The notes under the pieces are model-generated. The model saw only the letters and a list, made by a program, of their open reading frames with translations. It did no database searches and was not told where the DNA came from. From contig NZ_JOIU01000027.1 in assembly GCF_000720135.1 (NCBI RefSeq), forward strand, positions 121,764-185,763: a stretch of 64,000 nt of DNA, read 5' to 3'. The translations under genes and the position numbers were made by a program. Shown in pieces: positions 55,045-57,262 of the stretch. Every line of letters begins with the position of its first letter. The stretch's first letter is position 1. The stretch comes from Streptomyces sp. NRRL S-1022 (GTDB lineage: Bacteria; Actinomycetota; Actinomycetes; Streptomycetales; Streptomycetaceae).

Positions 55045-55072
55045 CTGCCCGGCTGTGGCTGCCCGGCTGTGG
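55045..55072. repeat. Adjacent 14-bp direct repeat upstream of the peptide gene
   Basis: CTGCCCGGCTGTGG occurs twice without a gap (55045-55058, 55059-55072). An unusually AT-rich stretch (55084-55117, containing GAGAAAATAGTCAATG) follows and is a likely promoter region for the peptide gene. Confidence 0.6.
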
Positions 55073-55175
55073 ACATACGCGTCATGCGTGAGAAAATAGT
55101 CAATGCACCATAAAACGCTGGAGGTTCACCGGAACCCCGGCTGGAGGGGCTCAGACAGGCGAGAGGAGCGCATTC

Positions 55176-55268
55176 ATGATCGCCAAGCTGCTGGGCAAGC
55201 TGTCCTTCACCCGCCGCTACGGCGCGTACGGTGCCCACGAGTGGGACGCGTACGCCGGCGGCGACTGA
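55176..55268 (+). CDS. 30-residue precursor-like peptide (candidate P450-modified RiPP)
   Basis: The frame MIAKLLGKLSFTRRYGAYGA followed by HEWDAYAGGD starts at ATG 55176, seven bases after GGAG, and ends at TGA 55266. Every codon but one ends in G or C, so it looks coding. The first half is a basic, leucine-rich helix (leader-like). The second half is packed with aromatics: Tyr15, Tyr18, His21, Trp23 and Tyr26. The next gene is a cytochrome P450 on the same strand, 102 bases away with a hairpin between. This is the layout of biarylitide, cittilin, atropopeptide and cihunamide precursors, but the core does not match those I recall. Function is inferred. Confidence 0.65.
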   Translation: MIAKLLGKLSFTRRYGAYGAHEWDAYAGGD

Positions 55269-55284
55269 GTCTGACGACATCCTC

Positions 55285-55308
55285 GGCGGGCGCCCCCGGG
55301 CGTCCGCC
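55285..55308 (+). terminator. Attenuator-like hairpin between peptide and P450
   Basis: GGCGGGCGCCC (55285-55295) pairs with GGGCGTCCGCC (55298-55308), with one G-T pair. A leaky terminator here would give more peptide message than enzyme message. Confidence 0.6.
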
Positions 55309-55370
55309 CCCTTCCAGCCGCACCGCCGACGGCGTCGGCCCGGACATGTACGGAGGCCGGGGACGATCTC

Positions 55371-56693
55371 ATGGGCCGGATGAACGAGCCACCGCGTCCG
55401 CCCGGGAGCGGCTTCGCGGCCTGGAGCCGTGACCGGCTGGGGCTGGCACGCCGTGGCGCCGACGAATGCGGGGACGTCTGGCAGCTGGAGCCGGGGGTCT
55501 GCGTAGCCGCCACGGCCGGATCCTGTGACGCGGTGCTGCGCCGCGCGCGGGACTTCCCCAAGGCACCCTCGCCCCTCTTCCCGCCGTTGAAGGGGTCCAA
55601 CGAAGCACGGACGGCCGAGGAGCGCGCGCACGCCCACGCCGCCCGGATGCGCGGACTGCGCGCGCAGGCGGTCGCGGCCCGGATCGGCGAGATCGCGCCC
55701 GGAGCCGCTCTCTTCGCCGCCCGGTGGCCCGCGGACCGGGACGTCGAGGTCCTGCCCGCGGCCCGGCACGCCCTGGCGGAGATCGGCGTCCGCTACCTCT
55801 TCTCCGAGGACGCCCCGGCCCTGCTGCCGTTCGCCGCACGGCTCTTCCTCGCCCGGGAGGTGCTCGTACGCCCCTCGCGGTGGGAATGGCCGCGGTGGGT
55901 CCCCACACCGGCACGGCGGTTCCGCACCCGGCAGCAGACCGCCTTCACCGACGCCCTGCGGCCCATCGTGCGCCGGCGCCTTTCATCGGGCCGGCTCGGT
56001 GACGACGTGCTCGGGCAGATGCTCCTGCCCACCTCCCGCTACGGCCCGCTGCCGGAAGAGGCCGTTCTCGACACCCTCCCCGGCATCACCGTCGCCACCT
56101 TCGAGGCGCCCACCCGGGCGGCCGGATGGATCCTGCTTCACCTGGCCCGGCACCCCGGGGCGGCGGACCGCGTCGCGGCCGAGGCCGCCTCGCTGCCCGC
56201 GGATCCGGCCGCGACGACCGGCACCCACCTCGACGACCTGCGGTACACCCGGGCACTGGTGTACGAGGTGCTCCGGCTGTACCCCCCGAGCTGGCTGCTG
56301 ACCCGGCGGGCCGCACGGCAGACCCAGCTCGCCGACTACACCATCGAGGCCGGGTCCACCGTTCTCGTCTGCCCCTACACCGCGCACCGGGACGCACGGG
56401 AACACTCCGAGCCGGACCTGTTCCGGCCCGAGCGCTGGCTCGACGGTCCGGGCTCGCCGGCGGAGCCGGGGGCCTTCCTCTCCTTCGGCACCGGACCGCA
56501 CGCCTGCGAGGGAGCCGCTCTGGCCATGGCGATGCTGACGCTCCTGACCGCGCACACGGCCGGCCGTCACCGCCTGAGCGAGCCGCCCGGACCGGAACCC
56601 GCCTACCAGCTCACCACCTTCGAGGGCCTGGCGACCGCCGGTCTGCGCCTGCGTGCCACCCCGCGCGGCCCGGGGCCGTCCCGCTTCCGGTGA
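55371..56693 (+). CDS. Cytochrome P450 (candidate peptide cross-linking enzyme)
   Basis: A 440-residue P450. The K-helix ExxR is in YEVLRLYPPSWLLTRRA, the PERW motif is FRPERWLDG and the heme loop is FLSFGTGPHACEGA with Cys379. In the I helix the usual acid-alcohol pair is altered: ATFEAPTRAAGW keeps Glu but has Ala-Pro where Thr-Thr is common, a change that fits radical coupling more than plain hydroxylation (inference). The PERW form and GPHACEG place it with P450s that use FAD-type reductases; no ferredoxin gene is near. GGGGA lies seven bases before ATG 55371. It follows the 30-residue peptide gene and probably acts on it. Confidence 0.85.
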   Translation: MGRMNEPPRPPGSGFAAWSRDRLGLARRGADECGDVWQLEPGVCVAATAGSCDAVLRRARDFPKAPSPLFPPLKGSNEARTAEERAHAHAARMRGLRAQAVAARIGEIAPGAALFAARWPADRDVEVLPAARHALAEIGVRYLFSEDAPALLPFAARLFLAREVLVRPSRWEWPRWVPTPARRFRTRQQTAFTDALRPIVRRRLSSGRLGDDVLGQMLLPTSRYGPLPEEAVLDTLPGITVATFEAPTRAAGWILLHLARHPGAADRVAAEAASLPADPAATTGTHLDDLRYTRALVYEVLRLYPPSWLLTRRAARQTQLADYTIEAGSTVLVCPYTAHRDAREHSEPDLFRPERWLDGPGSPAEPGAFLSFGTGPHACEGAALAMAMLTLLTAHTAGRHRLSEPPGPEPAYQLTTFEGLATAGLRLRATPRGPGPSRFR

Positions 56694-56716: not shown

Positions 56717-57262
56717 TCACCCTGGCCGGCTCACCCCGAACTCGTCGGCGAGCAGGCCCATCATGACGAGGTCGTGGTGCCGGCCGTCGAAGAAGACGTG
56801 CTCCCGCAAGCGCCCCTCCTCGGTGAAGCCGAGCCGACGCGTCAGTGCCAGCGACGCCTCGTTCCGGGCGAAGATCACCGCCAGGCACTTGTGATAGCGC
56901 CGCTCGGCGAACATGAAGCGCAGCAGGAGCGCCAGGGCCTCTGCCGCGTAGCCCCTGCGCCGGTGCTCGGCGCCGATCACGACATCGAATTCGAACCAGC
57001 CCGAACAGGGGCCGGTGCGGTGCGAGCCGATCGTCCCGACCAGCTCTTTCCCCGCCGTCGTCTCGACTGCCAGCCGGAAGCGGTCGCCGCCGCACTCGGC
57101 GACGGCTTGCCGCTTCGCCCAGGCCCGGTGGCTCTCGGCGGACCGGGGCAGCTCCAGCCGGCCCTCCGGCCGCCCCTCGTCGGCGAAGCGCGCGAACGCC
57201 GTCCAGTCGTCGGGCTCGATGGCACGCAGGCGCACCCGTTCACCGGTCCAGGACGAAGCCAT
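56717..57262 (-). CDS. GNAT-family acetyltransferase (RimJ/RimL type)
   Basis: A 181-residue N-acetyltransferase. The acetyl-CoA loop is VVIGAEHRRRGYAAEALALLLRFMF and the fold ends RNEASLALTRRLGFTEEGRLREHVFFDGRHHDLVMMGLLADEF, typical of the Acetyltransf_3 group that modifies ribosomal proteins, antibiotics or other amines. Start ATG 57262 (MASSWTGERVRLRAIEPDDW). It is convergent with the P450 (23 bases apart) and so is probably not part of that system. Confidence 0.88.
   Translation of the reverse strand: MASSWTGERVRLRAIEPDDWTAFARFADEGRPEGRLELPRSAESHRAWAKRQAVAECGGDRFRLAVETTAGKELVGTIGSHRTGPCSGWFEFDVVIGAEHRRRGYAAEALALLLRFMFAERRYHKCLAVIFARNEASLALTRRLGFTEEGRLREHVFFDGRHHDLVMMGLLADEFGVSRPG

Follow-up and report, generated by a model that had tools for sequence, protein, structure and literature searches.

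A conserved short peptide gene and its cytochrome P450 in Streptomyces: a candidate cassette for a cross-linked RiPP

Introduction

Several families of RiPPs are cross-linked by a cytochrome P450, and the published accounts of them are cited here from excerpts of their text. Atropopeptides (tryptorubin, scabrirubin and others) arise from a short precursor with a basic leader, encoded just upstream of one aromatic-coupling P450, and their definition includes a KSLK-type leader motif, with variants (PMC11450843). Biarylitides (MxYxH) are made from a five-residue precursor and a P450; N-acetylated products have been reported, the acetyltransferase being called unknown (PMC8708641). Cittilin is formed from a 27-amino-acid precursor by one P450 (PMC8708641), and in the aminopyruvatide system (ApyA/ApyO) the P450 ApyO joins two tyrosines in the sequence YLY (PMC13192836). 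Mining studies have covered P450-RiPPs on a large scale, among them SPECO, applied to the genomes of 20,399 actinomycetes, a set of 1057 clusters that fall into 11 classes, and the group called cyptides (PMC12299652, PMC11002830). Such systems are hard to annotate: the precursor is tiny and the P450 alone is visible.

The window analyzed here is a stretch of 64,000 nucleotides from Streptomyces sp. NRRL S-1022. An initial annotation of its sequence had pointed to a 30-codon open reading frame followed by a P450 gene on the same strand, and the features considered below are collected in Table 1. By its anatomy the locus would belong to the broad kind of P450-cross-linked RiPPs and, as far as the comparisons made here extend, to none of the named families. 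Our best reading, from sequence comparison, is a P450-cross-linked RiPP family that has neither the atropopeptide leader motif nor the biarylitide pentapeptide, and whose product is predicted to contain a Tyr18...Trp23 macrocycle.

Table 1. Features of the locus, numbered from the first nucleotide of the window
Feature	Position	Strand	Description
Ribosome binding site of the peptide gene	55161..55168	+	GAGAGGAG
Precursor peptide gene	55176..55268	+	30 aa, MIAKLLGKLSFTRRYGAYGAHEWDAYAGGD; orthologous loci 45/45
Precursor regions			Residues 1-17 leader-like; Tyr18-Trp23 predicted core; residue 24 onward a variable, acidic tail
Stem-loop between peptide and P450 genes	about 55282..55311	+	GC-rich, 12-bp stem; pairing kept in alignment
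Cytochrome P450	55371..56693	+	440 aa; predicted cross-linking enzyme; Pfam p450 5e-39
GNAT N-acetyltransferase (Acetyltransf_3)	56717..57262	-	Predicted tailoring enzyme; Pfam PF13302 3e-21

Comparison with described systems

The window locus shares the layout of the atropopeptide loci, and differs from them in the leader and in the enzyme. KSLK, RSLK, ESLK, KSRK, KPLK and PSLK are absent, on reading, from the window precursor and its 45 relatives, which thus lack the leader motif of the definition as excerpted (PMC11450843). A second feature in the same excerpt, Trp at core position two, would require the core to start at residue 22 and is absent with the start proposed below at Tyr18 (PMC11450843). 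Of 295 Streptomyces genomes, eight have frames of 27 codons (stop included) that end in AWYIWY, and every one of these frames contains KSLK. The frames that follow five of these precursors align to the window P450 at 33–39% identity over 100–124 residues only (tblastn), and their heme-Cys site reads ERCWG, compared with HACEG in the window enzyme.

With the biarylitides the locus has in common a precursor next to a P450 and aromatic residues a few positions apart. The biarylitide pentapeptide, with its aromatics at positions 3 and 5, contrasts with precursors of 22–32 amino acids and a conserved leader here, and the biarylitide P450 complex 8U2M was not among the best 60 of 303 and of 292 PDB matches. 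The core of cittilin, which we take to be YIYY, with RP-66453 in the same group (P450 CitB), differs from the window core YGAHEW, and no methyltransferase gene was noticed next to the P450. The sequence YIYY is found only in one relative, in the genome of Streptomyces sulfonofaciens (G069), where the precursor ends in YIYYY, one Tyr longer, and the P450 is 60% identical to that of the window.

The resemblance to aminopyruvatides lies in the enzyme. The window P450 has the heme-Cys motif FGTGPHACEG and an ExxR motif, and ApyO is its best-scoring NCBIfam equivalog, although the score of 117.7 bits falls far short of the 525-bit cut-off and is level with that of the CYP170 terpene-oxidase model, 117.6; the core, too, is a different one. 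Two sister P450s score higher on CYP170 than on ApyO (149.9 vs 142.2 and 153.4 vs 138.6 bits). Since the CYP170 score is level with or above that of ApyO, the kinship of the P450 gives no pointer to a peptide substrate. Among the PDB matches listed, the closest sequence is that of CYP170A1 (3dbg and, identical to it in sequence, 3el3). AlphaFold gave a weak, unusable model of the enzyme by itself (mean pLDDT 72), whose PDB matches indicate a P450 fold and nothing about the substrate.

The initial annotation had held the core to be unlike known ones and undescribed. The difference stands with respect to the atropopeptide leader motif and the biarylitide pentapeptide, and the word "undescribed" goes further than the comparisons allow. 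We give even odds to the family being real and already catalogued among the P450-RiPP classes of the mining studies, which covered the same bacteria (PMC12299652, from an excerpt) and could hardly have missed a family present in this many Streptomyces. On the other side, the best 30 of 138 full-text motif matches in the open-access literature included no RiPP paper, and the matches listed in further literature searches included none on a YGAYGxHxW-type core.

The precursor gene and its inheritance with the P450

The 30-codon frame is a real gene. A P450 scan with one genome per species gave 77 loci, of which 45 (L031-L075) carry close orthologs, 76–94% identical to the window enzyme, and 32 carry remote P450s at 29–35% identity. 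The initial annotation had proposed to look for co-conservation of the short frame beside homologous P450s, and would have been contradicted by homologous P450s that lack it; a peptide gene precedes the P450 at every one of the 45 named close-ortholog loci, which belong to Streptomyces, Kitasatospora and Actinacidiphila. The ribosome binding site was rightly called good: seven nucleotides separate the end of AGGAG from the ATG, and GCGAGAGGAG precedes the start codon in 42 of the 45 relatives (read by eye). The third codon positions, described as strictly G or C, are so in 29 of 30 codons, with one exception. The P450 lies, as stated, on the strand of the peptide gene, and the distance from the peptide stop to the P450 start, 52–310 bp over the 45 loci, is 95–105 bp in 37 of them.

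Presence and absence of the two genes agree across 392 Streptomyces genomes. A clear peptide match (E <= 5.5e-8) was obtained in 19, all of which have the P450, and no P450-less genome among the 392 matched the peptide at that threshold. The P450, at E <= 1e-60, is present in 21 genomes, including all 19, and the remaining two (G322 and G069) have diverged precursors. Weak peptide matches (E 0.09–1) appeared in 23 further genomes, G322 among them; the other 22, which have no such P450, are treated as chance. The locus thus shows one feature of the cyptides, a conserved short precursor ORF that sits beside a P450 and is inherited with it (45/45 loci, 19/19 peptide genomes). Among 394 genomes drawn across the class, the P450 family is found in three, all of the window's genus. 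It also occurs on two replicons of a plasmid collection, of 1.5 and 2.8 Mb.

Constrained residues and a dispensable tail

In 46 sequences, those of the window and its 45 relatives, M1, I2, L5, L6, L9, F11, R13, Y15, G16, A17, Y18, G19 and the Trp are invariant. His21 is kept in 43; the exceptions are one Asn and the precursors of L069 and L073, in which a Gly or Ala replaces His-Glu, shortening them by one residue and placing the Trp at residue 22 (one gap was placed at this site for alignment). Tyr26, which follows the Trp by three residues, is lacking from 16 of the 46 sequences. Among these are the shortest members of the 45 relatives, six in number, which stop at residue 24, one past the Trp, with the ending YGEHDWT in five and DWS in one.

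Calculated from 43 non-identical coding sequences whose core has its full length, dN/dS was 0.25 for codons 2–19, 0.33 for codons 20–23 and 0.94 from codon 24 on. The leader and core are under purifying selection, and the tail past Trp23 evolves almost neutrally. The basic, leader-like first half proposed in the initial annotation is thereby borne out. Of the five aromatics it had singled out, Tyr15, Tyr18 and Trp23 are fixed and His21 is nearly so; Tyr26 falls outside the conserved core because it is missing in 16 sequences and the tail is close to neutral. As the core is constrained and the tail is nearly free, the constrained product ends at the Trp. This natural series, 46 precursors on one P450 branch plus two deeper relatives, outlines the minimal substrate and the residues likely to form the ring.

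Sister-branch relatives and a second precursor copy

The P450s of the two deeper relatives, G322 and G069, are about 60% identical to that of the window and 74% identical to each other. Directly upstream of the P450 in G322 is the precursor MIKKLMGKLHVSRQYGAYRLYWR, ending in GAYRLYWR. In G069 the precursor is MIRKLMSMLPTPRRLGAYIYYY, ending in GAYIYYY, with a GNAT gene separating it from the P450 (locus L158:9156-11457). Both retain M-I-x-K-L and G-A-Y, and end at an aromatic residue or one residue past it; the position of Tyr15 is occupied by Leu in G069. From its sequence, the G069 locus is a candidate source of a cittilin- or RP-66453-like compound in Streptomyces.

A second copy of the precursor gene is present in genome G335 as an open frame (L155:9981-10076) on a 2.8-Mb replicon, putatively NZ_CP081497.1. 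Gene and flanks together match the resident precursor at 90% identity over 239 bp, and the surrounding 19.9 kb gave no match to the window P450. An open copy with no P450 nearby fits a substrate better than a leader ORF. Conserved upstream DNA and the stem-loop, which is described in the last section, accompany this copy.

The GNAT gene and the neighborhood

The initial annotation had described a minimal two-gene locus set in a conserved hppD/asnC context, of which the first part is not supported and the second does not extend to most relatives. A third gene, encoding a GNAT, is convergent with the P450, with 23 bp between their ends, and a homolog 75–92% identical is found at 32 of the 45 loci within the flank examined (in two of the 32 about 4.3 kb from the cassette), leaving 13 of 45 without one. 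Just two of the 45 relatives, of which seven have less than 10 kb of upstream sequence, have hppD/asnC around the cassette, and these genes were rejected as functional neighbors; the other window neighbors tested likewise recur at no more than two loci. The GNAT gene is kept at 32 loci and hppD/asnC at two; the unit moves as a cassette.

Distances between GNATs correlate with those between P450s (Mantel r 0.72, 0/2000 permutations; 33 rows including the window), and shared species history may account for part of this correlation. Other GNAT relatives were found at 64–70% identity among the best 120 of 450. In G322 and G069 the P450 is accompanied by a separate GNAT, and these two GNATs share 46% identity. 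By BLAST the G322 protein shows no similarity to that of the window, and the window GNAT in turn has no match at E <= 1e-3 in either locus; all three proteins match Pfam Acetyltransf_3. That each branch has GNATs of its own next to the P450 suggests a recurring requirement for acetylation.

Presence of the GNAT gene is associated with residue 20 of the 46 precursors: it accompanies Ala, Ser or Val in 31 of 32, Glu in 2 of 12 and the one-residue-shorter form in none of two (Fisher p 2.9e-8). On the P450 tree each character changes five times, and independent pairs gave a median p of 1, with no power. We make no claim of a functional link because the independent changes are too few.

No common neighbor replacing the GNAT gene was found across the 13 loci that lack it. 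Two of these have frames, named by eye, that recall mobile elements: a transposase-like frame about 1.4 kb after the P450 start in L069, and integrase-like frames 2.6–4.8 kb after it in L040.

A gene for a ferredoxin-reductase/P450 fusion lies downstream at 13 of the 45 loci, preceded by a ferredoxin gene in nine of the 13. One example (L038:12833-15454, + strand) is a single ORF of 874 amino acids with the ferredoxin reductase N-terminal and the P450 C-terminal. The reductase-first order appears unusual for a ferredoxin reductase-P450 fusion. Full-length homologs with 57–61% identity exist in other Streptomyces, and in some genomes the halves are separate genes. The fusion was rejected as a component of the system because, of 37 among 111 sampled genomes of the genus that match it or one half (E <= 1e-150), 31 lack the cassette P450.

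Proposed pathway

We consider it probable that the locus is a minimal RiPP cassette in which a precursor undergoes aromatic coupling by the P450, removal of the leader and, where the GNAT is present, acetylation. The P450 would hold the conserved basic leader, MIxKLLxKLSFTRxYGA, and oxidatively couple aromatic side chains of a core presumed to begin at Tyr18. The most likely link is between Tyr18 and Trp23, and His21 may take part in a second. A host protease would then remove the leader, probably after the invariant Gly-Ala, peptidases would trim the unconserved tail past Trp23, and the GNAT, where present, would probably acetylate the freed N-terminus.

The co-inheritance of peptide and P450, the constrained leader and core with a free tail, and the sister precursors that keep M-I-x-K-L and G-A-Y and end at an aromatic or one residue past it count in favor of this pathway. 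So do the shortest precursors, which stop one residue past the Trp, the open second copy in G335, the rank of ApyO as best-scoring equivalog, far below its cut-off though it is, and the GNAT genes next to the P450 in either branch. The CYP170-level scores of the P450, the Leu in place of Tyr15 in G069 and the 13 GNAT-less loci count against it. A RiPP in which the P450 performs another oxidation, such as hydroxylation, epoxidation, oxidative decarboxylation or a backbone link, and forms no aryl-aryl cross-link, is improbable; several other reactions are indeed reported for RiPP P450s in the excerpt of PMC13192836, but the fixed aromatics, their fixed spacing and the exchange of Trp for Tyr in the sister cores fit aryl coupling better.

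If the proposed coupling chemistry were confirmed, the aromatic ring made by the P450 may exceed in size those of the i+2 and i+3 links in the literature excerpted (PMC13192836, PMC11002830), and the GNAT would be an acetyltransferase candidate for the capping step whose enzyme is called unknown for biarylitides in the excerpt of PMC8708641. A more specific proposal, which we put forward tentatively and think more likely wrong than right, is a distinct family in Streptomycetaceae of Ac-YGxHxW hexapeptide macrocycles closed by a bond from Tyr(i) to Trp(i+5), or to Trp(i+4) in the shorter, His-less variants, made by one P450 clade, with a switch in the sister branch to YRLYW and cittilin-type YIYY(Y). 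If it were true, one enzyme fold would have come to form rings of different size on a leader that stayed conserved, and GNATs would have been recruited twice.

The intergenic stem-loop and an upstream element

The hairpin between the two genes was examined in an alignment of the window and 19 relatives, hand-chosen out of 46. Its 12-bp stem is preserved, with 92.9% of stem cells paired across the 20 sequences, compared with 38–48% when the partners are slid. Three of the 12 pairs change on both sides. Covariation is weak: the observed value was reached in 79 of 500 shuffles for both-side changes, in 21 of 500 for the covariation score and in 245 of 500 for further pair types. In the window alone the hairpin is no more stable than shuffled sequence (z 0.90), and its interpretation as an unusually stable RNA was rejected; what remains of the hairpin first noted is a conserved pairing. 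For a biarylitide operon, the legend of a supplementary figure refers to a structure predicted for its intergenic region of 90 bp (PMC8708641, from an excerpt). Here the stem-loop would perhaps lower expression of the P450 relative to the peptide, giving a high ratio of peptide to P450.

That the short frame is a translated leader (uORF) controlling, together with the stem-loop, a P450 that acts on something else would agree with the stem-loop kept between the frames and with their near-constant spacing, but is very unlikely, since the amino acid sequence of the peptide is itself constrained, the spacing spans 52–310 bp with a GNAT gene interposed in G069, the second copy in G335 is open with no P450 match around it, and the core letters of the sister branch differ while the leader letters stay.

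Within 200 bp upstream of the peptide gene, 18 of the 46 sequences contain the AT-rich sequence TGACATAT; the mean for mononucleotide shuffles is 0.035. Its counterpart in the window is GGACATACG, at about 55072-55092. This element is possibly a promoter or an operator.
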